In this document: in pieces, positions 3,571 through 32,323 of the stretch
Position numbering within the stretch: position 1 is the stretch's first letter
Layout: each line of letters opens with the position of its first letter
Assembly: GCA_025463165.1 (NCBI GenBank)
Contig: JAOBAU010000130.1
Span: 1 to 37,844, forward strand
Direction of reading: 5' to 3'
Source of the DNA: Acidobacteriota bacterium
Lineage (GTDB): Bacteria > Acidobacteriota > Thermoanaerobaculia > Gp7-AA8
Length of the DNA: 37,844 bases
Notes under the pieces: generated by a model
The model's input: only the letters and a program-made list of their open reading frames with translations
What the model was told of the DNA's origin: nothing
The model's database searches: none
Translations under genes and position numbers: made by a program

Positions 3571-4035
3571 TCACATCAGAGCTTGTTCATGAGGGCGACC
3601 AGCCTGGCGAATGAGATCGGCGCCGAGGATCCGATCCTGAGGCATGCGGAACTTGCTCGGCGGAGGCGTCTGCAGCCGTGAGGTGATCGACCCCTTTTTC
3701 TGAACCACGACCTGCTTCTGGAAGACGTGGAATCGCACGGAGCTGTGGCAGCGGAAGTAGTAGGTGTTCAACTGAGGCAGGAGCTCGGGATCGGGTTTCG
3801 AGATGTCGTCGGTCCAGTTCGCGTCTCCGGCGTTCCCAACGAATCCGCGGCGGATCGGCACCACGTGTTTGTTCTCATCGGCGCTGCCGACTTTGTGGAG
3901 CTGGCAGCGTATCTCTTCGCGAGAACGCTGTAACTCGACTGGTTGGGACCGGATACGCGAATTGTCGGGATGGAATGACGAAGTGCCGCTATGCGACTGG
4001 CGTCCACGCTCGCGGACGGCCGACGTAATCGTCAT
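3571..4035 (-). CDS. conserved small protein of unknown function, coupled to UbiA
   Basis: A 154-residue protein whose ATG overlaps the UbiA stop as ATGA (4032-4035), which fixes the start and indicates translational coupling. A longer open frame upstream only shadows UbiA. It has no signal peptide or membrane segment. The central part is the most family-like: VVPIRRGFVGNAGD (58-71) and TYYFRCHSSVRFHVF (91-105), followed by a basic tail ending in MPQDRILGAD. The Cys-His pair at 96-97 might bind metal or haem, but there is no CxxCH motif and I do not claim a cytochrome. I recognise no named domain. Position as last gene of the GT-C/toroid and UbiA trio suggests a role in the same polyprenyl or glycan chemistry. 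Confidence 0.6.
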   Translation of the reverse strand: MTITSAVRERGRQSHSGTSSFHPDNSRIRSQPVELQRSREEIRCQLHKVGSADENKHVVPIRRGFVGNAGDANWTDDISKPDPELLPQLNTYYFRCHSSVRFHVFQKQVVVQKKGSITSRLQTPPPSKFRMPQDRILGADLIRQAGRPHEQALM

Positions 4036-4940
4036 CCGACGAACAGCGCCGCCACCATTGCCAGGCCGATGACCGCGTACAGCACGCGGTAACGCGCCTG
4101 CAGACGGCAGACGCTCGCGAAGGTGAGGCCGTCGCGGAGAGTCTGGAACGACCACCACAATTGAATGGGATAGAGGACGACGACGATCGCGAGGGAGCGC
4201 GGAAGAATTCCGCGCAGTGCCAGCGTGAGGAAAAGAATCTGCGCCAGCGTAAAAAGGACGAGGCTCGCGGCGAACGTGCGGCGCTCGCCGAAGATCACCG
4301 CGTTCGTTCTTATGGCACTGACGGCGTCGCCCTGATGGTCGCGAATCTCCTGAGTGAGATGCCCGGCGGCGAAGATCAGCGCGAAAAATGTGGCGATGGC
4401 GACGCCGCGCTGATCGGCCGCGTGTCCCACGGAATAGCCGAGAAGGAAGTGGAGGATGCCGCCGGCGAGATGCGTCGCGGAGTTGAGGAGCGGTCTGCTT
4501 TTCCAATTGAAGAGCGGTAACGAGTAAAGGGCGCTCAGGATCGCAATGGCCAGCGCCAGTGAAAGCGTGATCGCGCCAAGCCGGCTGAAGAGAACGAGAC
4601 TTACGAGCAGAACGCCGGCCGTGAGGACGCCCATCTCACCACGTCCGACACCTCGGGCCGTAAATACGCCGGCCGCTTTGTTGGGATCGGCGAGATCGGC
4701 TTTTAATCCCGACCAGTCATTGAGCATGAAGATGTGCGTCACCAGGAAAATATTGGCGACGATGAGCATCGCCAGTGGACGCAGGTTCTCTACTCCCGGA
4801 TGGCCGATCGCGAACGCGGCGCCGAGCAGCGGCGAGCCCTGGAGCACGAGGACGTCCTGCAGTCGCAGCCAGGAAAGATAGCGAAGCGCGGAAGCTTTAG
4901 CCGGTCGGATGGGCGCGACCGAGTCGTTCATATTCGTCAT
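4032..4940 (-). CDS. UbiA-family prenyltransferase
   Basis: A 302-residue polytopic protein with about eight hydrophobic segments and the two Asp-rich motifs of the UbiA superfamily: LNDWSGLKAD (73-82, N74/D75/D82) and IRDHQGDAVSAIRTN (199-213, D201/D205). These bind the Mg-diphosphate of a polyprenyl donor. Which acceptor it uses cannot be told; ubiquinone, menaquinone, polyprenyl-phosphate sugar and terpene-cyclising members share the fold. It is the middle gene of a minus-strand trio: its start lies inside the end of the large membrane protein (44-base overlap) and its stop overlaps the small protein as ATGA. A second ATG at 4931 (MNDSV) is a possible alternative start. The neighbour's class II cyclase-like domain makes an isoprenoid acceptor or product worth considering. 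Confidence 0.85.
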   Translation of the reverse strand: MTNMNDSVAPIRPAKASALRYLSWLRLQDVLVLQGSPLLGAAFAIGHPGVENLRPLAMLIVANIFLVTHIFMLNDWSGLKADLADPNKAAGVFTARGVGRGEMGVLTAGVLLVSLVLFSRLGAITLSLALAIAILSALYSLPLFNWKSRPLLNSATHLAGGILHFLLGYSVGHAADQRGVAIATFFALIFAAGHLTQEIRDHQGDAVSAIRTNAVIFGERRTFAASLVLFTLAQILFLTLALRGILPRSLAIVVVLYPIQLWWSFQTLRDGLTFASVCRLQARYRVLYAVIGLAMVAALFVG

Positions 4941-7656
4941 AGAGTCTTAGCCACAGCGCGTAGCCGGCATCCTCGGACCAGTAATATCTGGCGACGCTCG
5001 CCGTGAGGTCGTTATGGTAGAGGAGCGGCGGATTCGTTCTTATGAGCGCAAAGTCGTCCCTCGCGAGCTCGCGCAGCACGGCGCGGATGAGCATCGCATC
5101 GGGCGGTGAGCCACCGGTCGCCGGCTCCATCATCATCCGGACGACCGACACCCAGAGCTGCTGTCCGGAAACGCCCGTGCGCATCCGTGACTCGGGCAGT
5201 TTCAGTTCGCAGCCGGCGCGCCGGAGATCGGCAATCCGCAGTATCGGGACCAGCGGCGTCTTTCGATAGTAGACCCAGAGGCGCTCCTCATCGATGACCG
5301 GCCGAAGCGCATCGCAGAGCGCGCGACCGCTCGCCGGACGCACTTCGGAGAGCAGCATCAGGAGATGCATCTGGATGGCGATGTCGGCAGGGTTCGGATC
5401 GCGACCGGGATCGAGACATTGATACGCGTCGCGTGGTGCGAGCCACGTGCGATAAAGACCGTCCGCCGTTCGATAACGATCGATGGTCGATAGTGCCGAT
5501 GTCAGGCGCGCGCGGTCATGCGCGGGAGCGATTCGCCAGACGAGAGCCGTGTTGTCGGTATCCGGAGTAATCGCGCAGCCAAGGGTACCGATGCCGGGAG
5601 CGTCGGGCAGGCCGTGATAGCGAACGAGTCCGCCGGATTCGATCTGACTGGTGAGGTGTTGCCGGGCGCGTTGCAGGTTTTCTTCAAGACCGCGCGCGGC
5701 GCTCAGAGGGTCGAGCAGATCGACGAGGAGCGACGTGAGAAACGTGTTCATCTCCGGATGCGGCCGATGAAAACGCGGCTCGCTCGTGTATGCGGTGAGC
5801 CAGTAACCCTGCGGCTGCTGATGCTCGCGAATGCGCGCTGCAGCGTTTCTGAATGCGTCGCTGAGATCTTCGGTGTTTAGCTCGCCGGCTTCGATTGCCG
5901 GAGCCGGCGCCGCGCCGACTCCGGCTCGCACCGTCAGCATGCGCTCGTCGAGGTACTGGCCTTCGCCGTTCCCGTAAGCCCAGGCCATTGCAGTGAGCCG
6001 GTGCTCGCCGGGAGTGAGAGCGGCCGTGTCGAGCGGAATGCTCCAGCCGGCGGGACTGGCCACGTGCATCGTCGCGCGAACGTCGGACCGGTCGGTAAAG
6101 ACCGACGTGGCGACGTACTGATGTCCGTCGATGCTGACGGCAACCTGCGCCGGTGTCCTGTCGCCGGCCAGCGTCCATCCGGCGACGACCGCCTGCTGGC
6201 CTGACGTAACCGCGGAGGTCACGCCGGCGCTGGTCACGACGCCATCGAAACTTCCGCGCATTGAATTCTTCAGATCGGGCGGCGCGATGCCCTGATTCAA
6301 AGCGACGATGAACGGCACGTTCCGCCAGCGAAACGCGGCGCGCATATCCTGCTCCTGCAAGTCGCGGTCAGCGGCGTAGATCGGCAGGTCGGTCGAACCG
6401 GTGTAGCAGAAGGCGCCGATGCCTTCGATGATGATTGCCGCACCGACGGCAATGAGAAAGCACGTCCGCGCGATGCCGCGCAATGCCGTAACGACCGGCA
6501 CCAGCATCCAGAAGAGGAACGGCAGGAGATCGGTCATATAGCGCGGTCCAAAGGAAAGACCGCCGCGCCAGTCGGTTTTCGCGTAGAGCAGGATCTGGAT
6601 GACGACAGCGATCGTCATCGCGAGAGTGAGTCGCCGCTCTTCGCGACTGTCCGGCAGATGACGCCACGCCAGCACGAGGAAGAGCAGAAAAGGGGAGAAG
6701 AGGAACAGTCCGCGCGTCGGGCTGACCAGCAATCCGGCCACTCCCGTCAACAGATCGTGCCGAAAGAAAGCAGCCTTGCCGATGACACCGTAACCACCGG
6801 CCACGTTGTTGGCCATGCGCAGGTTGTAGAACAGCACGATGAACATCGGCAGCGCGGCGGCCGCGGATAACAGCACAACCCGGCGCCGGCCGGCCCACAA
6901 AAGTCCGCAGATGCCGAGGGCCGCGCCGAGGATGACGTCGGGCGGGCGGTTGCAGGCGATGAGACCGCACAACAAGCCGGCGGCAAGCACTCGCGGCGTC
7001 GTACACCGCGCCGCGAGAAGCATCAGCACGCCGATCACCAGCACCTCGGCGAGCCCGTGCTGCCACAACGCCTGGCTGCTGATCACCCACGTCGTCGTGC
7101 CGAACGCATACGCGGCGGTGAGCAGCAGTGCGATCTTCACCGATGCGCGGCGGCGCAGCAGCAGGTAAAGCAGCGATGCGGAGAGCGCCGCAAGGAACGA
7201 GGCGCTCAGTTTCTCCATGACCTTCGCCACGTGATCCAGCCGCTGATTGCTCCAGCCGCGGAGATGCAGGTAAGCAACCGCGGGAACGTAAAGCGGTGCG
7301 ACGATCACCGGCACGACGATGGGATACAACGAGATGATGTGGCCGTCCGGCCGATGCAGCATCCAGAACGCCCCATCGCCGCGACCCTGCGCGGCGACGC
7401 TGGCGATCGGTTCGAAAAAAACGGTGTGGTACTGCACGATCGCGAAGGGGAGATATCGCGCCGGATACGTGTCGCCGGCAGTGATCGCGCGCAGGTTGGC
7501 GTTGTAGACCAGCATGCACATCAGGCCGATCAGGATGCTGGCCCGCAGTTCGTCGCGGTATCGGAATCCGGTCTCGAAATGCAGAGCTGACGCGGACTGC
7601 CCATCGGGCGGCGGGGTCATGGAGTCGTGGTCACTTGTGCTGATTTCCTGCGTCAT
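4897..7656 (-). CDS. GT-C-like membrane protein fused to beta-domain and terpene-cyclase-like toroid
   Basis: Start chosen at ATG 7656 (MTQEISTSDHDS), which has AAAAAGAG just upstream. A longer frame to 7776 would run into the divergent methyltransferase gene. The product is 919 residues. Residues about 40-420 hold ten or more membrane segments with GDTYPARYLP in the first outer loop and SFGPRYMTDLLPF before the last group, the layout of GT-C/GT39-type glycosyltransferases that use polyprenyl-phosphate sugars. Residues about 470-580 form a predicted beta-sandwich (VVAGWTLAGD...VAVSID). Residues about 590-915 are all-helical and contain PDTDNTALVW (698-707), very like the PDxDDTA catalytic motif of class II terpene cyclases, with Asn in place of the last Asp. 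The fusion is unusual. The membrane part is secure; the cyclase resemblance is inference from motif and helical pattern. Confidence 0.75.
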   Translation of the reverse strand: MTQEISTSDHDSMTPPPDGQSASALHFETGFRYRDELRASILIGLMCMLVYNANLRAITAGDTYPARYLPFAIVQYHTVFFEPIASVAAQGRGDGAFWMLHRPDGHIISLYPIVVPVIVAPLYVPAVAYLHLRGWSNQRLDHVAKVMEKLSASFLAALSASLLYLLLRRRASVKIALLLTAAYAFGTTTWVISSQALWQHGLAEVLVIGVLMLLAARCTTPRVLAAGLLCGLIACNRPPDVILGAALGICGLLWAGRRRVVLLSAAAALPMFIVLFYNLRMANNVAGGYGVIGKAAFFRHDLLTGVAGLLVSPTRGLFLFSPFLLFLVLAWRHLPDSREERRLTLAMTIAVVIQILLYAKTDWRGGLSFGPRYMTDLLPFLFWMLVPVVTALRGIARTCFLIAVGAAIIIEGIGAFCYTGSTDLPIYAADRDLQEQDMRAAFRWRNVPFIVALNQGIAPPDLKNSMRGSFDGVVTSAGVTSAVTSGQQAVVAGWTLAGDRTPAQVAVSIDGHQYVATSVFTDRSDVRATMHVASPAGWSIPLDTAALTPGEHRLTAMAWAYGNGEGQYLDERMLTVRAGVGAAPAPAIEAGELNTEDLSDAFRNAAARIREHQQPQGYWLTAYTSEPRFHRPHPEMNTFLTSLLVDLLDPLSAARGLEENLQRARQHLTSQIESGGLVRYHGLPDAPGIGTLGCAITPDTDNTALVWRIAPAHDRARLTSALSTIDRYRTADGLYRTWLAPRDAYQCLDPGRDPNPADIAIQMHLLMLLSEVRPASGRALCDALRPVIDEERLWVYYRKTPLVPILRIADLRRAGCELKLPESRMRTGVSGQQLWVSVVRMMMEPATGGSPPDAMLIRAVLRELARDDFALIRTNPPLLYHNDLTASVARYYWSEDAGYALWLRLYDEYERLGRAHPTG

Positions 7657-7733: not shown

Positions 7734-8465
7734 ATGACGGACGACGAAGTGCGCGCGCGGATTGCCGCCATTCCACACTGGTACCACCCCATCGAAGTAC
7801 GGCCGGGGATCATCACGCCCGGCGCGAACGCGGCGCGAACCGTGCTCGAGCTGCTCGACCTTCCGGCCGACTGTCGCGGGATGCGCGCGCTCGATCTCGG
7901 TACGCGCGACGGCTTCTTCGCGTTCGAGCTGGAGCGCCGCGGCGCCGAGGTCGTGGCGGTCGATTACATGGCAATGACCGACAGCGGTTTCGGCGTCGCC
8001 GCGGAACTGCTCGGCTCGGGCGTCACGTACCTCCAGCGCAATCTGTACGAGCTCACGGCCGCGGACCTCGGCACGTTCGACATCGTGCTTTTTCTCGGGC
8101 TGCTCTATCACCTTCCCGATCCGCTCGGCGCACTTCGCGTCGTGCGCAATCTCACGCGGCAGCGGATGTACGTCGAGACGCTGGTGCTCGATTTCGGACG
8201 TGAGCTCGACGAGTTGCCGCTGATGCGTTTCTTCGCCGGCTCGAGCTGGGCCGGCGATCCGACGAACTACTGGGGGCCGAACGTTCGCTGCGTCGAGGAG
8301 ATGCTCGGCGAGACGGAGTTCGCGACGCGACGGGTCGCTCGCATCGGCGACCGCTGCGTGTTCGCCTGCGAGGCGATGTCGAGTCCCGCCGCCGCGTACT
8401 ATATGCAGATCGCCACCGGCCGCCGCGCGCCGGAAAGCATCCCGGGAAACCCGCAACACCAATGA
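7734..8465 (+). CDS. class I SAM-dependent methyltransferase, CmoB-like
   Basis: A 243-residue protein. WYHPIEVRPGIITPG (16-30) and SAM motif I LDLGTRDGFFAFELERRGA (53-71) are followed by VVAVDYM and the motif IV-like FDIVLFLGLLYHLPDPLGAL. This pattern resembles the CmoB/DUF1698-like group, but these homologues outside the tRNA pathway often sit in glycan clusters, so a small-molecule or sugar O-methyltransferase is as likely as a tRNA enzyme. The stop overlaps the next gene as ATGA (8462-8465), so it is the first cistron of the glycosyltransferase operon. It is divergent from the GT-C/toroid gene across a 77-base shared promoter region. Confidence 0.85.
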   Translation: MTDDEVRARIAAIPHWYHPIEVRPGIITPGANAARTVLELLDLPADCRGMRALDLGTRDGFFAFELERRGAEVVAVDYMAMTDSGFGVAAELLGSGVTYLQRNLYELTAADLGTFDIVLFLGLLYHLPDPLGALRVVRNLTRQRMYVETLVLDFGRELDELPLMRFFAGSSWAGDPTNYWGPNVRCVEEMLGETEFATRRVARIGDRCVFACEAMSSPAAAYYMQIATGRRAPESIPGNPQHQ

Positions 8466-11400
8466 CCGTTCCGTTTCGGTTGATCGTCGCCGGCATGCAC
8501 CGGTCAGGCACGTCGTTCGTTGCCTCGCTGCTCGCGGCGTGGAACGTTCGGATGGGCGACCGGTTGGTCGCCGCCGACCGCGGGAATCCCGCCGGCTATT
8601 TCGAGGACGTCGATTTTCTGGAGCTCAACCGCCGCCTCCTTGTCGCCGCTGTTCCGCCGGAAGATGGCTATCGCGACTGGGGCTGGACGGAGAGCGAGAC
8701 GTTCGATGCCGGAGCGTTGCGCGCACATCGCGATGCGGCAGCGGCACTCATTGCCGCGCGCGATCGCGCAGGGCATTCGTGGGGGTGGAAGGATCCGCGC
8801 ACTTCACTCCTCCTGGATTTCTGGGATGACCTGCTCGGCGCGGACGCGCGCTTTCTTCTTGTCTATCGGCATCCGTGGGAAGTGGCCGATTCGATGCTGC
8901 GCACAGGCGCCGACATCTGGCTTACCAATCCGAGTTACCCCGCACGGATCTGGACGTATTACAACCGCAGCCTCCTCGACTTTCACCGGCGTCACGCCGA
9001 TCGAACGCTGCTCGTCAGCACCAATCGTCTGCTGCGCGATCCGGAAGCATTCGCCGCCCTGATTCGCCAGCGCTTCGGCATTGAGGCCGATGCGAAGACG
9101 ATCGCGAGTCTTCGCGCGGAGGGCTCGTTCGTCTCGTTTCCGGACGACGATCCGCTGCCGCGTCTGTGGCGATCCACGAACCCTGAGGCGATGGAACTGC
9201 TGGCGGCGCTCGACGATGCCGCCGATCTCGGCAACGATCGCGCGCGGGAAACGAAAGCTGCGCATCGAACGGCGACGCGACCGCGTCTCTCCGTCATCAT
9301 TCCCTGCCACGACGACGGCGATTACCTGATCGATGCCGTGGCCAGCGTAGAGCGCAACACGCCCGCGGATACGGAGCTGATCGTCGTCGATGACGGCTCG
9401 TCGCAGCCGCGCACGCGCGACGTGCTCGCCGCGCTTCGCGAAGCGGGACATCGCGTCATCGAACAACCGCACTCCGGTTTGTCGGCGGCGCGCAACACCG
9501 GAATCGTTGCATCGAGTGGCGATTACGTGCTGCCGCTCGACGCTGACAATCGCCTGCTGCCGGGCTTCGCCGCGGACGCGGTGGCGCTGCTGGACGCCGA
9601 TCCGTCCGCCGGCGTGGTCTACGGCGATCGCCGCGAGTTCGGCGCGCGAAGCGGCGACGTCGCGGTGCCGGAGCTCGAGCTGCCGCGGATGCTCTGGAGC
9701 AATTACATCGACGCCTGCGCCGTGTTTCGCCGCGCGGTCTGGAGCGACTGCAACGGCTACGACGTCGCGTTCACCGACTGGGAGGATTGGGATTTCTGGC
9801 TTGGCGCGGCGGAGCGCGGGTGGCGGTTCGTTCATCTGCCGCGGCCGACGTTCGAGTATCGCATCCGTCCCGATTCGCTGCACCAGCGGTTCCTCCGCCG
9901 CGACGATTACCCGTCGACGCTGCGCCGTCTGTACGAGAAGCATCGCGAACTCGTATCGACGCACGCCGCCGAAATCCTCATCGCCGCGCACGTCGAGCGA
10001 CGCGCGCTCTTCCGAGATACCGAAGCGATGCGCGCATCACGCGACGCCATTCAGGCGGAGATCGATCGGCTGGCGGTCGGGACGCGGGAGCAGCTCGCCG
10101 CGCTGCAGGAGATCGTCGCGGCACGCGATGCCGAACTGGCCTCGGTGAAGTTCGTGCTGGCAGCTCGCGACGAAGAGCTGGCCTCGCTGCGGCCTCGAGC
10201 GTCAGTCGCGTCGCCGGAGAATGCGCTGACGGACGCGACGCGCGTCTTCACGATCATCGCCCGCAACTATCTCGCTCACGCGCGCGTGCTCGCGGCGAGT
10301 CTGGCGCGTCACAATCCCGGAGCTCGTCTGCACGTCGTCGTGCTCGACGATCCGGACCTCGCGCCGGAGCCGTCATTCGAGATCATTCCAGTGGACGAGC
10401 TTCCGTTCGAGCCGCCATCGGATCTCTACACGATGGCCGCGATCTACGACGTCACCGAGCTTGCGACGGCCGTAAAGCCGTGGGCGTTCGAGTACTTCTT
10501 CGAGCGCGGCGCATCGGTCGTGATCTATCTCGATCCCGATATCGAGGTTTTCGACTCGCTCGCACCGCTCGAGTCGTTGACGCGCGAGCAGGGAATGGTT
10601 CTCACGCCTCACATCACCGAGCCGCTGCCGCGCGATGGGAAGCATCCCGACGAGCGCGATCTGCTGCTGTCCGGCGTCTACAACCTCGGCTTCCTCGCGC
10701 TCTCCGCCGATGCGGCGAAGACGATGCTGCCATGGTGGCGCGAGCGTCTGCGGCGCGATTGCCTCAACGATCCGCCAGGCGGATTGTTCGTCGATCAGCG
10801 CTGGATCGATCTCGCACCGGCGCTGTTCGAGCCGTCGATCCTCAAAGACGCCGGATACAACGTCGCTTACTGGAATCTGGCTCACCGCGTGCTCGCACGT
10901 GAAGGCGATCGCATGCTGGTGAACGGGCAGCCGCTGCGCTTTTTTCACTACAGCGGTTTTTCTCCGCGTGCGCCGCACGTGCTCTCGAAGCATCAGCATG
11001 GATCGCTTCGCATCCGCCTGAGCGAAAGGCCGCTCCTTGCCGAGCTCTGCGAGCGTTACGCCGCCGCGCTGGAGGAGGCCGGCTTTGCCGACTGCTGCGC
11101 GATGCCGTATGGATTCGCAGCGACCGCCGATGGACTGCCGCTCGATGCGCGGACGCGTAGAGTGCTCCGCCGCACGTATCTCGAGGATGAAGCGGGCGGG
11201 CGCGCGCCGTCGTTTCCGAATCCGTTCTCGTCCGCTGGCGCGGCCGACGTCGTGCAGCGTCTGTTGCGCCCATCACCGCACGCACCCGGCATTCCCATCT
11301 GGCTCGGCGAGATCTGGAACGATCGGGCGGATCTGCGCATCGCGTTTCCGCGCATCGACTCCGCCGACGCGGAGCGATTTCTTCAGTGGGTACGGACGCA

Positions 11401-12916
11401 GGGTGTTCGCGAACACGCCATTCCTCCGCAACTCATTCCGGCCGCAAATCCCGAGATCGCGCTGCAGGCAGCGCGCGCCAAGAATCTTGCTGCCGGTGTC
11501 AACGTGTACGGCTATGCATTCGCGGAGAGCGGTACCGGACAGATCGTCCGCTCCGTCGTCGCCGCGCTCGCCGCGGAAGGGATTCCGTACGCGGTCGTGC
11601 CGTTCACGCGCACGATCAGCCGGCAGCAACGCGAGTTTGCCGATCTCGGCGCGGTCGCTCCGTCATTTGACACGAATCTGATCTGCGTCAACGCCGACCA
11701 GGTGCCGCTGTTCTTCGAGAGCATGCGCGAGCAACTGCTGCCCGGCGCACGCAACATCGGTCTCTGGGCGTGGGAAATCGAAGAGCTTCCCGCAGCGATG
11801 GCCGCGAGCGAGCGCTATCTGGACGAGGTGTGGGGCATCAGCAGTTTCACCGCAGCGGCGCTGGCTCGCCGTCTCACGAAGCCCGTGCGCGCGTTTCCGC
11901 TGCCGGTCGTGGTGCCGGAAGTGCGACGTCGCACGCGCGCCGAGCTCGGGATGCCGGAAGGCTTCCTCTTTCTCTTCTGCTTCGATTACGACAGCGTCTT
12001 TCGCCGCAAAAACCCGCTCGCGATCGTGGCCGCGTTCCGGCAGGCGTTTGCCGATCGCGCGGACGTCGTGCTCTACGTCAAAACTACGAACGCCGAGCGG
12101 CACGCGGCGGAAGATGAAGCGCTGCGCACCGCCGCCGGAGGTTGCGCGAACATCGTCATTCGCGATGCCTACGTCACGAGCGACGACTACTTCTCGATGC
12201 TCGATGCCTGCGACTGCTACGTTTCGCTCCATCGTTCGGAAGGTTTCGGCCTGACGGTCGCGGAGGCGATGGCGCTCGGCAAGCCGGTGATCAGCACTGC
12301 GTATTCGTCGACGCTGGAGTTTGCGAACGAGTCGAACAGCTTTCCGGTGCCGGCGCGGATGGTCGAGGTGGGCGAGGGCGCACCGCCATATTCGTCCTCC
12401 TCGCGCTGGGCGGAGCCCGATGTCGCGATCGCCGCCCAACAGATGGCTCGCGTCTGCGCCAATCGCGAAGAAGCGGCAGCCGTCGGTGCCCGCGCGCGCG
12501 CCGACATCGAGGCGCTGCACGGTCCGTCGGCGCGCGGACCGCTGCTGCGCCGGCTGCTGGACGAGCATCGTCGCAGACGCGAGACGTTCATGCCGCCAAT
12601 GGAGGTGACAGTGGAACCAACCGCTCTTTTCGAAGCCGACGCCTCAGCCGTGGAGTCGCTCCTCGGCGTCCCGCGGCCGGACCTTCCGTCGAGGATGCAG
12701 CGACTCGCGACCCCGTTGCGCCGCCTGGTGCTGCGCTTCATCCGCGTCTACTGGGTGCAGCAACTCGCGGTCGATCGAGCACTGCTCGCCGCGATGCGCA
12801 CGCTGCGTCGCGAGTCCCGTAACGAGAGCGTTCGCATACGCGAGCAGTTGACCGAGCTCTCTGACGAAGTACGAGCGCTGCGCGAACGGATCGACGGTCC
12901 CGGCGGACGCGAGTGA
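8462..12916 (+). CDS. giant four-module sulfotransferase-glycosyltransferase
   Basis: A 1484-residue cytoplasmic protein with no membrane segments. Modules in order: (i) sulfotransferase-like, about 1-250, with a P-loop GMHRSGTSF (11-19) of the PAPS-binding type and later KDPRTSL and YRHPWEVADSML; (ii) GT2 family, about 275-510, starting SVIIPCHDDGDYL with LPLDADNR as the DxD region near 359; (iii) a helical linker, about 515-585, rich in Ala/Glu/Arg heptads; (iv) a GT8-like or nucleotide-diphospho-sugar domain, about 590-870, with YLDPDIEVFD near 690; (v) a GT4/GT-B domain, about 1010-1385, with the donor-site signature SEGFGLTVAEAMALGKPVIS (1259-1278). A helical tail follows. It probably builds several linkages of one surface glycan and may sulfate it. 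Coupled both sides by ATGA and GTGA overlaps. Confidence 0.88.
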   Translation: MTVPFRLIVAGMHRSGTSFVASLLAAWNVRMGDRLVAADRGNPAGYFEDVDFLELNRRLLVAAVPPEDGYRDWGWTESETFDAGALRAHRDAAAALIAARDRAGHSWGWKDPRTSLLLDFWDDLLGADARFLLVYRHPWEVADSMLRTGADIWLTNPSYPARIWTYYNRSLLDFHRRHADRTLLVSTNRLLRDPEAFAALIRQRFGIEADAKTIASLRAEGSFVSFPDDDPLPRLWRSTNPEAMELLAALDDAADLGNDRARETKAAHRTATRPRLSVIIPCHDDGDYLIDAVASVERNTPADTELIVVDDGSSQPRTRDVLAALREAGHRVIEQPHSGLSAARNTGIVASSGDYVLPLDADNRLLPGFAADAVALLDADPSAGVVYGDRREFGARSGDVAVPELELPRMLWSNYIDACAVFRRAVWSDCNGYDVAFTDWEDWDFWLGAAERGWRFVHLPRPTFEYRIRPDSLHQRFLRRDDYPSTLRRLYEKHRELVSTHAAEILIAAHVERRALFRDTEAMRASRDAIQAEIDRLAVGTREQLAALQEIVAARDAELASVKFVLAARDEELASLRPRASVASPENALTDATRVFTIIARNYLAHARVLAASLARHNPGARLHVVVLDDPDLAPEPSFEIIPVDELPFEPPSDLYTMAAIYDVTELATAVKPWAFEYFFERGASVVIYLDPDIEVFDSLAPLESLTREQGMVLTPHITEPLPRDGKHPDERDLLLSGVYNLGFLALSADAAKTMLPWWRERLRRDCLNDPPGGLFVDQRWIDLAPALFEPSILKDAGYNVAYWNLAHRVLAREGDRMLVNGQPLRFFHYSGFSPRAPHVLSKHQHGSLRIRLSERPLLAELCERYAAALEEAGFADCCAMPYGFAATADGLPLDARTRRVLRRTYLEDEAGGRAPSFPNPFSSAGAADVVQRLLRPSPHAPGIPIWLGEIWNDRADLRIAFPRIDSADAERFLQWVRTQGVREHAIPPQLIPAANPEIALQAARAKNLAAGVNVYGYAFAESGTGQIVRSVVAALAAEGIPYAVVPFTRTISRQQREFADLGAVAPSFDTNLICVNADQVPLFFESMREQLLPGARNIGLWAWEIEELPAAMAASERYLDEVWGISSFTAAALARRLTKPVRAFPLPVVVPEVRRRTRAELGMPEGFLFLFCFDYDSVFRRKNPLAIVAAFRQAFADRADVVLYVKTTNAERHAAEDEALRTAAGGCANIVIRDAYVTSDDYFSMLDACDCYVSLHRSEGFGLTVAEAMALGKPVISTAYSSTLEFANESNSFPVPARMVEVGEGAPPYSSSSRWAEPDVAIAAQQMARVCANREEAAAVGARARADIEALHGPSARGPLLRRLLDEHRRRRETFMPPMEVTVEPTALFEADASAVESLLGVPRPDLPSRMQRLATPLRRLVLRFIRVYWVQQLAVDRALLAAMRTLRRESRNESVRIREQLTELSDEVRALRERIDGPGGRE

Positions 12917-23676: not shown

Positions 23677-24326
23677 TGAACGTTCATCTGCTTGGCGTGG
23701 CGAAGGTCCGGCGCAGCCTGATGCTCCCGATCATCGTGTTCACGGTGCTGAACGCGGCGATGCACGTGCGCGGGTTCAACGACGGATGGCCGTGGATCGT
23801 CTCCGCGTACGTGCTTTTCGACAGCCTGCTCTGGATCGGCGTCGCGTTTGTCATTTTCGCGGTGGTCGAATGGCGGCAGAGACTCCGTCCCCAGCCGCGG
23901 CTCGCGGCGATGGCGGCGGCAACCGCCGGCATCGCCACGCTCGCGATGACGATCATCACCGTTCGCGCGCTCTTCGACTCGATCATCAAGCCGCAACCGT
24001 TCGTGGCGCGATGGCTCCAGTATCTTCCCGGCTCGTTCTACGCCGTTACGTTTTACGTCGCGATCGTTACGGGGATCGCCTACGGGGTTTACTCGTGGGC
24101 TGTCGACGACCGGCGCCTGGCCGAGGCGGCGGAGCTCGATGCGGCGATCGCGAGGGCGGAGCTGAAGACCGCGTCGGCACATCTGCAGCCTGAATTGCTG
24201 GACGCCGCACTGGCGCGTCTCTCCACGCTCATGGCTACGGACGTCGCCGGCGCGCAACGTCTGATCTCCGATCTCGGCGCGCAGATGCACGAGTCGCTTG
24301 GCGAGCGTTATCGCGATTCGGCGTAG
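23676..24326 (+). CDS. degenerate membrane histidine-kinase-like protein
   Basis: 216 residues with four membrane segments (about 15-30, 40-62, 77-98, 117-140). The cytoplasmic tail AELKTASAHLQPELLDAALA (161-180) aligns without gaps to the preceding kinase's AELRVVAEQLEPHFLLNTLT (169-188), so the phospho-acceptor His is replaced by Glu (E173) and the usual Asn is lost. The chain then ends; there is no ATPase domain. Start ATG 23676 overlaps the kinase stop by one base (TGATG), so it is coexpressed. It may act as a non-catalytic partner, for example by heterodimerising with the kinase. The last 19 bases overlap the convergent LanB gene. Confidence 0.78.
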   Translation: MNVHLLGVAKVRRSLMLPIIVFTVLNAAMHVRGFNDGWPWIVSAYVLFDSLLWIGVAFVIFAVVEWRQRLRPQPRLAAMAAATAGIATLAMTIITVRALFDSIIKPQPFVARWLQYLPGSFYAVTFYVAIVTGIAYGVYSWAVDDRRLAEAAELDAAIARAELKTASAHLQPELLDAALARLSTLMATDVAGAQRLISDLGAQMHESLGERYRDSA

Positions 24327-27300
24327 ACGCCTCGCCCCTCATCCGGCCTTCGGCCACCTTCTCCCGGAGGGAGAAGGGCTGCTTGCGCGCGCGTGTTTCT
24401 TGCCAACTGCGAGCGATACAACTGCACGAGATAGTCGTAGACGACCAGCTCGTGCTCGGGACCGGCGGAGCGGCTGAGACGATTCACGAACATATGGATG
24501 ACGCTCTGAAGGATCGCCTGCAGCGGCATCTGCAGACGGCCGCGGCGCTCGAGCGCGATCAACTCGGCGACGACTCCGGCTATCGCTGCCGATCTCCGTT
24601 GCAATGCGCGAACAGACGCCGAATCATCAACCAGCCGCTGGAATGCGCCGCGCTCGCGGCGGAACCGCTCCGCGAGGGCTTCGCGCACGGCGTCGTACTG
24701 AAACTGTTTCCCCAGCAGGTCGCGTGACGCTTCCGCCAGGTGCAGCCGGCCGGCGGCGTTGCAGCCGAAATCGCGGAGCAGCGCATCGATGCCGGCGGCA
24801 ATGAAAGGCGCGCGAGAGGCCGATCCCGCGTCGCCACTGCACGCGTCGAGCAGTTCGATCACCGCCACGCTGTCGCGGAAGAAGATCTCTTCGACGAGGT
24901 CGATCGCCTCGGCACCCCCATAGCGTTCGACTTCGCGCTCGTACGTGTCGAACTGCACTTTCCACGCGAGCCCTTCATCGAGAAGACGGCTGCCCGCCGC
25001 CTGCAGCGCGGGTTGAACCGAGTCGCGCAGCGTTCGCGGATCGCCGTGGAAACGGATGCGCAGATGCCAGTGCGGATCGGAATAGCGGATGAAGAACCAG
25101 CGGTCGGCCGCGCCATCTGCAATTGCCTCCGCGGCCAGACGTCCGACCTCCTCCGCCAGCACGCGATCGGCGGTGGCGGTGCCTGTGTAGAACTTCGCGA
25201 AGAGCCACTCCGATCCCGGAGCAAACGTACGTTGAATGAGCGGCGCGGGCGACCTCCTCGCGGCGGGCGCAGGCGCCGCGAGCTCCGCACGTTTCGCGAA
25301 CGGAATGACGAGCTCGTGGAAGAAGTGTCCTTCCGGACCTTCGGCGCAGAGTTGATCGGGCGCGGGATAGAGCTCGGTGAAGACGAAGTCCGGACGGTTG
25401 CGAACGAGCTCGATGGCCGCGTCGAGCGCGAGGACGTTCTCGAAGTCGACGAGCAGCTCGTGATCGCCGTCCGTCAACACGACGTAGCGAGGCATGCGAT
25501 GTTCCTCGCGAAAGCGCTGGACGGCGCGATAGCGCGCCGCGCCGGAGGTCGCCGCGATCGTTTGGATCCGCGTGGTCATGATGCGCCAGCGTGCGCGTGC
25601 CAGGACGATCCGGCCGCTGATGACGCGCGGCAGAAACGGCAACGTCTCGAGCGGTCCCCAGGTCCATTGCATGCCGAGTCCCTGCGAGACCGCGGCGAGA
25701 AAGCGATAGGCGCCGAGGCTTTCGGAGGTGGTGTTGTGCGCGCTGGTGAGGCGAGGAATCACTTCGCGGTCGAGGCGTTTCGAGCGAAGGCGGATGCGGT
25801 CGCCGGAGACGCTGACGAGCAGATCGTCGAGCGGAATCTGCGCGTCCTGCGGAGCGCCCGAGCGGCCTAGGAACGGAATCTCGAATCGGCGCAGCACGGG
25901 ACGCGCGAGGATGTTGCCGATCCGTCCGGCGGGGAGGTGGACGATCTCCGCGAACAGTGCGTCGGGGCGAAGCGCTTCTTCGTCCGCCAGGTGTTTCTCG
26001 ACGCCTTCGCGGATCGCGGCATCGACGTGACAGAAGCGGCCGAGCATGCGCGCGCCCGACGGACCGGAGGCGAAGTGAACGTGCATGCGGTACTCGCCGC
26101 GCTCCACCGCTTCGGCCGAGGCCGCGGCGATCGTCCCCATGACGTGAAACGCGTCGGGCAATGTCGGCCGTTCGACGTTCTGCATTCGGAGGAGATCGTC
26201 GTCATTGAGCTCGATCTCCGTCCGTCCTTCGCCGAGTGCGCGAACGAGCAGCTGCAGCAACGCGCCGTCGCTGTGGCTCAACGCGACGCGCGGTCTCTCG
26301 GCTCGTCCGCGCAGCGCAAGACCGGCGAGCAGCGGCGATGCTTCGGCGGCGGCGTTGGCGGCGCGCTCGTAGCCGATGCCGTTTTCCTCGTCGAGTGCGA
26401 TGAGGAGCGGAACCTCGCGATCGGATCCGTACCGCTCCTGAAAGGCGGCGCGAAATTCATCGAGCGCCTGGTCTCCCCGCTGCTGTGAAAAGAGGTGCAG
26501 GATCTCGACGCCGCGCAGGATCTCCGCGACGACGCTTTCGCCGAGGACGACGTCCGATGGCGGTTTGATGAGATCGACCTGGAAGAGCCGATTGAGCTCG
26601 AGCGGAATGCCGAGCGGCTCGAGCTCGCGCGCGACTTCGCGATAGCGCTCTTCCGTCGAAGTGCCGGCGCAACGATCGATGTCTGCCAGCGCATCCGCCG
26701 CGCCGGTCAATCGCGTGCGTGCGTCACCGGCGGCCGCGACGCCTTCGAGTTGTTGCAGCAGTCCGGCAGTGCTTTCGCCGCCCGTCACCGGCAGCGCGAG
26801 ATCGGGGAGGAGGAGCTGGTTGTCGACGACGTCATCGAGGAACGCCGCGGCATCCTCGATCGTGATCTCCCGATCCGGATCGGAAGCAACCAGCGCCTCG
26901 GCGAGCTCGCGCAAACGGACGCCGCCGCGTGCGCGCTGCAGTGTGTCGCGCAATGCATCGAACGCGTCGAACGCCACGAGGTGATACGTCCGCTGCCGCC
27001 CCGCAACGCGCGACTCCGCGAAGCGCAGGCGTCCTGCCGTTTCATAGAGCGTCGAGTTCGGACGAAAGGTCAGTTCGCCGCGGATCTCGGGAATCCGTGC
27101 GAGGTGCTCGCAGAGCGCGTGCAGATAGTCCATGTCGAGGCGGCTGTGTCGGCGCCACGCGCCGCGTTCGGTCAACGCCAGCCGCGTGCGCTCGCCGATG
27201 CGGCCGGGCGTGCAACCCGAGAAGAGCCCGAACGGCGTCGGCCGCGTGACCATGCGCAGGAAGTAGCGCACCAGTCCCTGCTCGGTGCGCCGCCCTTTCT

Positions 27301-27571
27301 TCGAGTCGGGCTCGCGTTGCCATGCTTCGATGCTGTCCATGATGGCGGGCGAGGCGAGGAAGATCGCATCGGCGACTTCCGGACGGCCGAGCATCGCCTG
27401 CAGCCGCTCGCGCAGCAGCGCGCGATCGTGGAGCAATGCGTCGTCGAGTGCTGCATCATCAGCCGATGAGGCGCGCAGTCCGTGCGTCCATGCGTCGAGC
27501 GTTTCGCGTGGAAGCAGCGGCGTGCGCATCACAATCAAACCGCTCGCGGCGAAGTCGCTGGAGATGCTCAT
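24308..27571 (-). CDS. lanB: class I lanthipeptide dehydratase (LanB, full length)
   Basis: ATG 27571 overlaps the LanC stop as ATGA; the frame upstream of that is shadow. 1087 residues, the length of a complete LanB. The N-terminal glutamylation domain has the hallmark RMVTRPTPFGLFSG near residues 103-117 and continues to about 770. The C-terminal elimination domain (SpaB_C, about 780-1065) has EWLFAKFYTG and RWFFIRYSDPHWHLRIRFHG. In known systems this enzyme glutamylates Ser/Thr of the precursor using Glu-tRNA and eliminates glutamate to give dehydroalanine or dehydrobutyrine. The last residues (LLPPGEGGRRPDEGRG) come from the repeat element, and the true C-terminus of homologues may be shorter. 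Confidence 0.93.
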   Translation of the reverse strand: MSISSDFAASGLIVMRTPLLPRETLDAWTHGLRASSADDAALDDALLHDRALLRERLQAMLGRPEVADAIFLASPAIMDSIEAWQREPDSKKGRRTEQGLVRYFLRMVTRPTPFGLFSGCTPGRIGERTRLALTERGAWRRHSRLDMDYLHALCEHLARIPEIRGELTFRPNSTLYETAGRLRFAESRVAGRQRTYHLVAFDAFDALRDTLQRARGGVRLRELAEALVASDPDREITIEDAAAFLDDVVDNQLLLPDLALPVTGGESTAGLLQQLEGVAAAGDARTRLTGAADALADIDRCAGTSTEERYREVARELEPLGIPLELNRLFQVDLIKPPSDVVLGESVVAEILRGVEILHLFSQQRGDQALDEFRAAFQERYGSDREVPLLIALDEENGIGYERAANAAAEASPLLAGLALRGRAERPRVALSHSDGALLQLLVRALGEGRTEIELNDDDLLRMQNVERPTLPDAFHVMGTIAAASAEAVERGEYRMHVHFASGPSGARMLGRFCHVDAAIREGVEKHLADEEALRPDALFAEIVHLPAGRIGNILARPVLRRFEIPFLGRSGAPQDAQIPLDDLLVSVSGDRIRLRSKRLDREVIPRLTSAHNTTSESLGAYRFLAAVSQGLGMQWTWGPLETLPFLPRVISGRIVLARARWRIMTTRIQTIAATSGAARYRAVQRFREEHRMPRYVVLTDGDHELLVDFENVLALDAAIELVRNRPDFVFTELYPAPDQLCAEGPEGHFFHELVIPFAKRAELAAPAPAARRSPAPLIQRTFAPGSEWLFAKFYTGTATADRVLAEEVGRLAAEAIADGAADRWFFIRYSDPHWHLRIRFHGDPRTLRDSVQPALQAAGSRLLDEGLAWKVQFDTYEREVERYGGAEAIDLVEEIFFRDSVAVIELLDACSGDAGSASRAPFIAAGIDALLRDFGCNAAGRLHLAEASRDLLGKQFQYDAVREALAERFRRERGAFQRLVDDSASVRALQRRSAAIAGVVAELIALERRGRLQMPLQAILQSVIHMFVNRLSRSAGPEHELVVYDYLVQLYRSQLARNTRAQAALLPPGEGGRRPDEGRGVYAESR
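24335..24378. repeat. dispersed-repeat-like element with two hairpins between convergent genes
   Basis: A short GC-rich block containing CCCTCATCCGGCC, a GGCC-TTC-GGCC mini-hairpin (24345-24355) and a perfect 8-bp stem with a 3-base loop (24358-24365 with 24369-24376). It resembles the short intergenic repeats of the 'CTCATCC...CTTCTCCC' type that recur in many high-GC genomes. It may terminate transcription from both sides. The LanB frame reads through it, supplying its last 20 or so residues. Confidence 0.5.
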
Positions 27572-28848
27572 GAGGCGATCGCTCCACGATGAACGTCCGG
27601 GCGCGGCGGGATGCTGACGACCATCACGCGATCCCATGACGGCTCGACGTCCGTGATCGCGGCGAGCAGCGCGAGACCGATGCCGGCGATGCCGGAGAGG
27701 AATCCCTGCTCGCCTCTCCACGAGCCTTCTGCGGTCGGAGTCGATTCGTACCAGCTGAGGAATCCCGCGAGGCCGTGGCCGGGGCGCCGCATGTCGAGTG
27801 CGATCCGATACCACCGCAGCGCGGCGTCGCGAAGCTCGTCATCACCGGTTGCCTGATACATGCGATTGAAGAGGTGCGCGATACCGGTCGCTCCGTGACA
27901 GAGGCCGGCATCGCTGACCATCGTGTCGTCGAACGAGCGCCGCGCCGCGACGTGCGCGATCGCCAGCGCTTCGTCCCGCCATTCAGGGCGATCGAAGGCG
28001 TGCGCGGCGGAGAGCAGCACCGCGGCGACGCCGAGATCTCCGTAGCACCACGCCGTACGCGTTTGCCGCGGCTCGGAATCGGGCGGAATGTGAGACGGAA
28101 AGAGAGAGCCGGGCCAGATTCCTTTCTGCGCGAGAACCCATTGCACCGCGTCGTTCGCCAGACGCGGAAGGCGCGGATCGCGCACGCCCGCATCCCGCGC
28201 TGCGGCGAGAAAACCGATCACGCCCGGGATGCCGTGCGCGACGCCGAGGTTGTAGTGGCCGCGCGGCATCAGCTCGCGTTGCCAGTCCGGCAGCCAGTCG
28301 GGATTGGAGAACCACGCGCCGTTGGATTCGCGTGAAGATTCGAGCAGTCCGATGACGCGATCGAGCAGTTCGGCGGCACCGGCGTTCGGGAGCCGCTCGA
28401 CGAGGTAGCTCCCGTAGCCGGTCAATCCTCCCACCAGCTCGAACGGCATCGGCCGCGTCACGTCGGAGAGCAACTGGCGCAGCGCGTCGTCGACCTCGAG
28501 TGCGAGATCGCCGTCGCCTTCGAACAACTCGCGCGTCAGATGCGCGAGCACCCATCCCACACCGGAGAAACCCGAGTAGAGATCGGGCAGAAGGCCGTGC
28601 TCGGCGAGTGCGCCGCTGCTCAGTTCGATCGCCGCCAGCGCGCGATCGGCGGCCGTGTCGTTGCCGCCGGCCGCGTGGAGATATGCGAAAAAAAGCGCCA
28701 CGCCGGACGTGCCGCCGGCGACGTGCGCCTGAAGATGCGTGCCGTCGTCCGGTCCGTACGCGACGTAGTCGGCGAGCACGCGCTCGATGTCGGCGATGGT
28801 GGCGCGGCAATCGCGGATCGTGTCCGCGCCGGCAATGGCTTGCCACAT
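27568..28848 (-). CDS. lanC: lanthipeptide cyclase (LanC)
   Basis: 426 residues from ATG 28848, chosen because AGGAGG (28857-28862) sits 8 bases upstream; the longer open frame covers the hairpin and precursor gene and is a shadow. LanC forms thioether rings by adding Cys thiols to dehydro residues. Zinc ligands are visible as C268 (TAWCYGDLG) and C317-H318 (GLCHGATGIAHL), with the conserved active-site H205 in LGVAHGIPGVIGF. GG-containing toroid repeats (YSGFSGVGW, GFLSGIAGIGLALL) fit the alpha/alpha barrel. It ends by ATGA overlap with LanB. Confidence 0.95.
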   Translation of the reverse strand: MWQAIAGADTIRDCRATIADIERVLADYVAYGPDDGTHLQAHVAGGTSGVALFFAYLHAAGGNDTAADRALAAIELSSGALAEHGLLPDLYSGFSGVGWVLAHLTRELFEGDGDLALEVDDALRQLLSDVTRPMPFELVGGLTGYGSYLVERLPNAGAAELLDRVIGLLESSRESNGAWFSNPDWLPDWQRELMPRGHYNLGVAHGIPGVIGFLAAARDAGVRDPRLPRLANDAVQWVLAQKGIWPGSLFPSHIPPDSEPRQTRTAWCYGDLGVAAVLLSAAHAFDRPEWRDEALAIAHVAARRSFDDTMVSDAGLCHGATGIAHLFNRMYQATGDDELRDAALRWYRIALDMRRPGHGLAGFLSWYESTPTAEGSWRGEQGFLSGIAGIGLALLAAITDVEPSWDRVMVVSIPPRPDVHRGAIAS

Positions 28849-28856
28849 CGGTCGTT

Positions 28857-28862
28857 CCTCCT
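28857..28862 (-). promoter_or_regulatory. strong ribosome binding site of lanC
   Basis: AGGAGG on the minus strand, 8 bases before ATG 28848. It decides the lanC start and stands out because promoter-proximal genes in this window lack such sites. Confidence 0.85.
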
Positions 28863-28897
28863 GAAGAAGAAAACGGCCGGGTGGTGTCCCCGGCCGT
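28861..28897 (-). terminator. hairpin and T-rich tail after the precursor gene
   Basis: A perfect 9-bp stem (28889-28897 with 28873-28881) with a 7-base loop, followed on the minus strand by TTTTCTTCTT. It begins 19 bases after the precursor stop and ends at the lanC ribosome binding site. A leaky rho-independent terminator here would let precursor mRNA exceed lanC/lanB mRNA, as in other lantibiotic operons. It could also protect the 3' end of a processed precursor transcript. Confidence 0.75.
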
Positions 28898-28915
28898 CTC
28901 ATGTGGTCGGGGATC

Positions 28916-29119
28916 TCAGCAGCAGTTCGCGGCCCAGGTCGGAGTGAGACAGCTGCCGCCGGTGATGCAGCTTTCGGTCGGACAGTCGAGGCAGAACGAG
29001 ATACCGGTCGGCACACATGCCCACGTCCGTCCACCGACCGCGCCCTGGAGGTCGCGTTCGGAGAGGTTACGCAGCGTTTCCTTGTTGAGGTGCAGCTTGC
29101 TGACGATCTGTTTTTTCAC
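28916..29119 (-). CDS. lanA: class I lanthipeptide precursor peptide
   Basis: A 67-residue peptide starting at GTG 29119, with AAAAGGAG (29126-29133) six bases upstream. The leader, residues 1-30, is MKKQIVSKLHLNKETLRNLS followed by ERDLQGAVGG; KLxLNKETLRNL is the signature of a known class I lanthipeptide precursor family. It ends in GG, the cleavage site of C39 peptidases. The core, residues 31-67, begins RTWACVPTG and ends WAANCC. It has seven Cys (35, 43, 46, 51, 57, 66, 67) and nine Ser/Thr (32, 38, 41, 48, 50, 53, 56, 59, 61), so up to seven thioether rings are possible. It lies 17 bases after lanT. I know no characterised lanthipeptide with this core. Confidence 0.93.
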   Translation of the reverse strand: MKKQIVSKLHLNKETLRNLSERDLQGAVGGRTWACVPTGISFCLDCPTESCITGGSCLTPTWAANCC

Positions 29120-29125
29120 GGCTGA

Positions 29126-29133
29126 CTCCTTTT
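29126..29133 (-). promoter_or_regulatory. ribosome binding site deciding the GTG start of the precursor
   Basis: AAAAGGAG six bases before the GTG at 29119. It lies between the lanT stop and the precursor start and supports GTG initiation. Confidence 0.8.
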
Positions 29134-29136
29134 CAT

Positions 29137-31356: not shown

Positions 31357-32323
31357 GACCGATTCCCACGGAAAAGAGAAGCGCCAGCAGCAGAGCCGCG
31401 ATCGTGGCCACCGCGAGCCACGGCGTGCCGCGCGTCCACGCCGCGTTGATGCGCAACGGTTCGGAACCGGCCAGCAGCGGCTGATCGAGCTCGCGCAGCG
31501 CGTTGTGACGAAACGGACTGCCCGGCGTCTGCACGAGCCAGGTGGCGAGGTACGGACTGGCATGCGCGGCCAGCGCCTCGAGCATCGCGACCTCGGCTGG
31601 CTGAAATGGAGACTCGTGTTCCGGCCGGAGCGCGACGAGCACCGCCACGATGGCGCCGCGCGCAGCGCGCACCGGCACGCCAAGGAACCGGTCGGATGAA
31701 TCGCCGTCCGGATTGTCGAGATCGAGATCGACGCGCGGATCGCCGGCGAGCCGCGAGAGACAGACGGTCATCCCGGTGCGGACGATGAAACTGACGAGAC
31801 CAACCGCGGCGCTCGCTTCTTCGCTGGCGTCGCCCGGACTCCAGAGGACGTGTTGCTCACGCTCAAACAACACGCAGCGGCTGCGCCGCGTCTCGACGAC
31901 GCTGGCGATCGCGCGCTCCACCGCATCGGCGACGTCCGCGACATTCTCCGCCGTCGCCATCCTCCGCAAATCCTCGGCAGGCAGAAACAGATCGGCCGGT
32001 GCATCACGGCCATCGGTCATGCGCGCGGCGTCGATCAGTGCATCGAGCTCGCGTTCCGGAAGGTCACCACAGGAGAGATAGAAGAGCCGATCGGTGTCGA
32101 TGAGCGGCTGAAAGTCCGCCAGCTGGTCACGCGAGCTGAGCACGATGCTCGTACATCGAGTGCTCTTCTCCGCGAGGAGGTCAAGCACCGCGCTAACGTC
32201 GCGTGCGACGGCACCGGGACCGAAGACGAGGACCGCCTGCTCGTTCTCCCCGATGGCGTCGAGTTGCACGCGGTCGATCACCGATTTGATGCGATAGAGC
32301 GGCTGCGTGCCGGTACTTGTCAC
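31349..32323 (-). CDS. pseudo-receiver/GAF protein with C-terminal membrane anchor
   Basis: 324 residues from GTG 32323, first gene of the lanthipeptide operon and overlapping lanT by eight bases. Residues about 28-100 have a receiver-like alternation (AVLVFGPG, SIVLSSRDQ, LFYLSCGDLPERELDALI) without a clear phospho-Asp. Residues about 130-262 look like a GAF domain (FLGVPVRAARGAIVAVLVAL, FQPAEVAMLEALAAHASPYLA). A single membrane helix (301-320) ends the protein, only four residues from the stop. Membrane-fusion (HlyD-type) proteins would normally continue after such a helix, so this may be a truncated adaptor or a standalone sensor or scaffold for LanT. Function is unknown. Confidence 0.68.
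   Translation of the reverse strand: MTSTGTQPLYRIKSVIDRVQLDAIGENEQAVLVFGPGAVARDVSAVLDLLAEKSTRCTSIVLSSRDQLADFQPLIDTDRLFYLSCGDLPERELDALIDAARMTDGRDAPADLFLPAEDLRRMATAENVADVADAVERAIASVVETRRSRCVLFEREQHVLWSPGDASEEASAAVGLVSFIVRTGMTVCLSRLAGDPRVDLDLDNPDGDSSDRFLGVPVRAARGAIVAVLVALRPEHESPFQPAEVAMLEALAAHASPYLATWLVQTPGSPFRHNALRELDQPLLAGSEPLRINAAWTRGTPWLAVATIAALLLALLFSVGIGHG

Follow-up and report, generated by a model that had tools for sequence, protein, structure and literature searches.

The window analysed here, a stretch of 37,844 nucleotides from an Acidobacteriota bacterium, carries on its minus strand an intact open reading frame of 919 codons (4897-7656) whose product has a GT-C-like membrane domain followed by an Ig-like beta-sandwich and then by an all-helical carboxyl-terminal domain. 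This fused architecture is conserved among its relatives. Comparison with homologues suggests that the true start of the gene may lie some codons downstream of the first codon of the frame. The stacked open reading frames found around it in other frames were dismissed as shadows of the high GC content. No Pfam family matched in a search with the whole fusion protein. The 3' end of the gene overlaps by 44 nucleotides the gene of a UbiA prenyltransferase (4032-4940, minus strand; Pfam UbiA, E = 2.7e-19). The initial annotation of this DNA, made from the sequence alone, had correctly reported the frame, the overlap with UbiA and the peptide PDTDNTALVW, whose residues D699-T-D701-N702 (codons 699-702, GAT ACC GAC AAC) occupy 5562-5551 of the minus strand. 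It had also counted a small conserved protein among the overlapping genes, which has to be withdrawn: across 31 related loci, no reading frame is conserved in the segment 3540-4045.

Upstream of the fusion gene a divergently oriented methyltransferase gene (7734-8465, plus strand; Pfam Methyltransf_23, E = 2.4e-9) is followed by a gene coding a glycan-cluster protein of 1484 amino acids with sulfotransferase-like, GT2 and GT4 domains (8462-12916, plus strand). Multi-glycosyltransferase proteins resembling the latter are found near the fusion gene in several other loci. The loci read in detail contain genes for GT4, GT2, GDP-mannose dehydratase, UDP-sugar dehydrogenase, sulfotransferase and methyltransferase, and in them the module is part of surface-glycan assembly.

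The amino-terminal membrane domain (residues 36-420; 6397-7551, minus strand) has about 12 hydrophobic segments according to hydropathy. Its residues 155-404 weakly match NF047440, the family of the LA_3751/LA_3752 putative glycosyltransferases, with 52.5 bits, far under the cut-off of 200; unlike in that family, Ig-like and toroid domains are fused to the membrane domain here. The motif G61-D62-T63 in the first predicted extracytoplasmic loop is invariant (D62 in the nine members of the order), as are W363-R364 and G370-P371-R372 ahead of the last two transmembrane segments. The GT-C membrane enzyme proposed by the initial annotation agrees with this topology and with the weak family match; the score stays below the family cut-off and the model of the full-length protein is poor, and the domain is called GT-C-like here.

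Loops such as the conserved W363-R-G-G-L-S-x-G-P-R are found on the active-site side of GT-C enzymes. The loop is followed by two transmembrane segments with a positively charged loop between them; counting back from the carboxyl-terminal end, this charge pattern would place both the Ig-like domain and the toroid on the extracytoplasmic side, with an ambiguous count at TM2/TM3. A toroid predicted to be a lipoprotein in a distant genome agrees with this location. We know of no terpene cyclase that works extracytoplasmically or is built into a glycosyltransferase. The Ig-like domain (residues 466-577; 5926-6261, minus strand) is the best-scoring region (pLDDT about 60-80) of the full-length AlphaFold model, which was otherwise set aside (pLDDT 44).

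The carboxyl-terminal domain (residues 600-919; 4900-5859, minus strand) is predicted with good confidence by AlphaFold2, run on 31 sequences (pLDDT 90.4, pTM 0.90), to be an alpha/alpha toroid with the fold of the beta-type domain of monodomain class II terpene cyclases. In a Foldseek search of the PDB the drimenol synthase AsDMS comes first (E = 2e-5, TMq 0.64), followed by a monodomain squalene-hopene cyclase (SHC; 1e-4), by the merosterolic acid synthase MstE (1.7e-4) and by an SHC, with all glycosidases below; the glycosidase MmpH is found at E = 3.6e-4 (TMq 0.50) and complement C3 chains come next. The TM-score of 0.64 for the best match is reached at an rmsd of 5.4 A, a level that unrelated alpha/alpha toroids can attain as well. 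A QW-like motif, Q613-QPQ-G617-Y-W619 (QxxxGxW; 5800-5820, minus strand), is apparent in the family alignment.

Sequence comparisons of the toroid gave no match to the Pfam cyclase families, nothing significant in sequence searches of the PDB and no match below E = 0.001 among the BFVD structures. Alignment with hhalign to the SHC of Acidobacteriota was not significant (best probability 21%), while a GH88 profile used as control scored below SHC. Profile comparison alone is no proof of homology between the toroid and the cyclases and their predicted kinship is therefore drawn from modelled structure and motif, not from sequence statistics. A search of the genome of the window for SQHop_cyclase returned a single weak match on a different contig. 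Assignment as a two-domain SHC, defined by a pair of beta and gamma toroids that enclose the active site, was rejected, the protein having one toroid of ~320 amino acids. Since cyclases rank first in the structural comparison and the aspartate motif is conserved, a glycosidase or peptide-binding toroid devoid of an aspartate pocket did not emerge.

The likeness to the PDxDDTA acid motif noted at the outset extends to the whole family: PD[TAS]DDT is found in every relative and DxDD in 31 of 32 toroids (all but that of the window, which is counted among the 32), and such conservation argues against a chance resemblance. The eight full-length relatives of the same order (59-73% identity in the alignment) all have PD[TA]DDT. 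The replacement of the last Asp by Asn, also recognized early, is real and private to the window, where a single transition changed GAC to AAC. D699 and D701 are present in 32/32 toroids, N755 (5392-5394, minus strand) in 31/32, and Y796, Y797 (5266-5271, minus strand), H881 and R708 in 32/32. R708 lies seven residues past the acid, as does the Arg of the pattern DxDDTA[ML]x[FW]R of plant class II diterpene cyclases. Polar or charged invariants are numerous (E635, N637, D758, Q762, R807, D883) and suit sugars as well as terpenes.

By spacing along the sequence, and not by superposition, the pocket residues correspond to D331, D333, Y426 and Y427 of AsDMS and to D271, D273, N324 and Y361 of AstC. 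Counted from the middle Asp, the Asn equivalent to AstC N324, which holds the acid Asp, stands at +54 here compared with +51 in AstC, and the Tyr pair at +95/+96 compared with +93/+94 in AsDMS. AsDMS uses D333 of its D331-x-D333-T-T motif as the acid, which is held by Y427, and binds the diphosphate through Y373, Y426 and R378 (PMC12365925); the mutation D333N abolishes cyclisation (PMC9128629). In AstC, N324 and Y361 hold the acid D273 (PMC13244436). Both enzymes are active with Thr as third residue of the motif. Asn702 by itself does not imply loss of function, therefore, and by analogy the DxDN copy of the window may still be active as it retains the two Asp used by the DxDTT enzymes. That the window carries a member in decay or already inactive, a view that would fit whichever function the family has, is improbable. 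In its favour, Asn is found in only one of the 32 toroids and arose by one transition; against it, the frame is intact over 919 codons, every other invariant residue is retained and the active AsDMS and AstC have Thr at the equivalent position.

A scan of one genome per species in 84,980 species yielded 31 loci. The taxa concerned are Acidobacteriota (with Thermoanaerobaculia and Blastocatellia among them), Mesorhizobium, Variovorax, Hydrogenophaga, Tahibacter, Lysobacteraceae and others. The loci cannot all be counted as independent, as part of them share genomes with the eight relatives of the same order and several Mesorhizobium loci are closely related. In 30 of the 31 a UbiA gene lies directly beside that of the toroid, mostly overlapping it, in Acidobacteriota and Proteobacteria alike; the exception is L058, and in L055 UbiA is on the opposite strand. 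In one genome (L036 / L058) the fusion gene has no UbiA within the contig and is followed by a different gene. UbiA is a near-obligate partner of the toroid gene. In a 376-genome sample of Acidobacteriota its close clade (E below 1e-90) is found only beside toroids, save for one copy cut by a contig end, and the three UbiA relatives lacking a toroid neighbour are distant (about 28-32% identity) and stand in other contexts.

The membrane domain is the variable part of the module. It is LA_3751-like in most loci, DUF6077 in L083 and L051 and of another multispanning type in Hydrogenophaga, and the pairing of toroid and UbiA is kept through these complete amino-terminal swaps, even where the GT-C is of unrelated type. 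Paralogues composed of the GT-C part without toroid also exist. In one distant genome (L052, 6832-17592) two stand-alone toroids, one of them the predicted lipoprotein with the sequence PDADTT (DxDTT), lie near UbiA together with several GT-C-like proteins, a DPM1-like GT2 and a phosphodiesterase of the AlkP superfamily; it may be a related pathway, differently arranged. Since the pairing outlasts the GT-C swaps, toroids stand alone near UbiA and GT-C-only paralogues occur, the conserved unit is the toroid together with UbiA, joined to a glycosyltransferase-like membrane protein. Gene order across phyla strongly supports a functional link of the toroid gene to UbiA, and to this extent the polyprenyl-glycosyl transfer system put forward as possible by the initial annotation is supported; cyclisation, in the light of the non-significant SHC profile comparison, stays conjectural.

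The UbiA protein scores above the Pfam cut-off and has the two Asp-rich motifs of its family, NDWSGxxxD (4695-4721) and ExxDxxxD (4326-4349), with N74, D75, D82, E198, D201 and D205 invariant. In 30 of 31 proteins Gly takes the place of the third Asp of NDxxDxxxD. Searched against the PDB, the family profile finds AfUbiA (4tq3; E = 1.1e-6), with UBIAD1 as a weak match (0.11); DPPR synthase structures are absent up to E = 10. According to PMC11127046, PPPRS requires the third Asp of motif 1 (D251) and carries RxxE in its loop IV. Identity with DPPRS/PPPRS was rejected on account of the Gly at this essential position, the lack of RxxE and the absence of DPPRS structures among the matches. With the Asp and RxxE missing, this UbiA is more likely to transfer a prenyl group than to act on phosphoribose.

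The strongest rival of a cyclase function, ranked below it, builds on a three-component extracytoplasmic glycosylation. UbiA would make a polyprenyl-phosphate sugar, like the DPPR/PPPR synthases, a flippase would export it and the GT-C would transfer the sugar to a surface glycan, leaving the toroid as a periplasmic module for glycan binding or trimming, with DxDD as an acid cluster that acts on sugar or serves the structure. Such a scheme is quite possible. UbiA and GT-C are an established pair in pentofuranosylation, which likewise unites a PPPRS UbiA, a MATE flippase and a GT-C (GT136) in surface-glycan clusters (PMC11127046). The glycan clusters around the present loci, the Mesorhizobium GT2 directly after UbiA that resembles polyprenyl-phosphate-hexose synthases, the predicted periplasmic location of the toroid, its distant lipoprotein version, its polar invariants and the presence of MmpH among the structural matches all fit this scheme. 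Against it, the UbiA motif residues needed for PPPRS are absent and the structural relative is AfUbiA rather than DPPRS, while the toroid matches terpene cyclases above glycosidases and GH88 scores under SHC. The GT-C of pentofuranosylation is of a different family and, as far as described there, has no toroid, and no flippase was identified in the module.

The reading preferred here, to which we assign a probability of about 0.45, is a monodomain class II cyclase-type domain that acts on a membrane prenyl lipid and is coupled to GT-C transfer. The model with a pLDDT of 90, the order of the Foldseek matches, the conserved pocket residues, the adjacency of UbiA, its persistence through the membrane-domain swaps, the restriction of the close UbiA clade to toroid neighbours, the distant stand-alone toroids near UbiA and the AfUbiA match speak for it. 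The hhalign result with SHC, the lack of Pfam cyclase matches, a TM-score within reach of unrelated toroids, MmpH, residue equivalences drawn from spacing, the extracytoplasmic topology, the polar invariants and the DxDN of the window weaken it. UbiA would transfer or elongate a prenyl group on a membrane acceptor, and D701 of the predicted toroid, helped by D699, N755 and Y797, would protonate the far end of the prenyl chain and so start its cyclisation; the two-gene module would then yield a prenyl-modified surface glycan or glycolipid. The prenyl substrate, its cyclisation and the coupling to glycosyl transfer are what we infer from these features.

The nearest functional analogues would be MstE and AsDMS. 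MstE reportedly is a monodomain class II cyclase that was crystallised with a geranylgeranylated aromatic acid. Like the toroid proposed here it has one toroid with a class II acid motif, and it acts on a prenylated acceptor, not on a prenyl diphosphate; it differs in being a stand-alone enzyme, with 12-14% identity in the structure match, and we know of no link of MstE to a glycosyltransferase. AsDMS and AstC, the HAD-TCbeta drimane synthases, have a single carboxyl-terminal TCbeta toroid fused to a partner enzyme, a DxD(T/D) acid motif with similarly spaced Tyr and Asn partners, and provide the best structural match. Their partner, in contrast, is a soluble HAD-like domain and not a membrane protein, their motif is DxDTT and not DxDD, identity is about 9%, and the accessible text on them mentions no UbiA or glycan context.

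The same fold and conserved pocket might instead serve a non-catalytic toroid that holds the prenyl tail of the UbiA product, or of the lipid donor or acceptor of the GT-C, while the latter works. Such a role would account for a toroid that is fused carboxyl-terminally to GT-C-like domains of three types and has UbiA as its almost constant neighbour. Against it, a binder has no need for the strict invariance of D699, D701, N755 and Y797; this alternative is the least probable of those considered.

Occurrence of the module is patchy, in 8 of 396 Acidobacteriota genomes and, among 274 genomes from the class of Variovorax, in the query genome alone, which suggests horizontal spread along with glycan clusters. 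No relative was found in the plasmid collection. With the module, the few single-domain proteins that resemble class II cyclases gain a family outside all Pfam models. The cyclisation of terpenes and the assembly of glycans are as a rule considered apart, and the module suggests an undescribed link between prenyl and glycan chemistry; the open-access literature searched, with subscription journals mostly outside, holds nothing that connects UbiA, GT-C and terpene cyclase, in line with the novelty claimed for the combination at first. The more ambitious proposal, a first extracytoplasmic class II terpene cyclase, housed within a GT-C and acting jointly with UbiA in the cyclisation of prenyl groups carried by a surface glycan or glycolipid in soil Acidobacteriota, Mesorhizobium, Variovorax and Hydrogenophaga, is rather doubtful. 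The UbiA and GT-C::toroid module is present in named bacteria (Variovorax paradoxus, Mesorhizobium, Hydrogenophaga pseudoflava), so that the question can be addressed by gene deletion combined with analysis of surface glycans and lipids.

Two further groups of genes lie on the minus strand of the window. A class I lanthipeptide-type cluster (24308-31683) codes for a full-length LanB dehydratase, a LanC cyclase and an ABC transporter with a C39 peptidase. Between LanC and the transporter, at about 28916-29119, lies a putative lanthipeptide precursor, of uncertain start codon, with a GG leader and a core rich in Cys, Ser and Thr that ends in LQGAVGGRTWACVPTGISFCLDCPTESCITGGSCLTPTWAANCC. At 34618-37804 the gene of a 764-residue protein resembling ATPases of the Hsp90/GHKL type, which has no Pfam or PADLOC match, overlaps that of an N6/N4 DNA methyltransferase; the two are a possible defence or modification pair.
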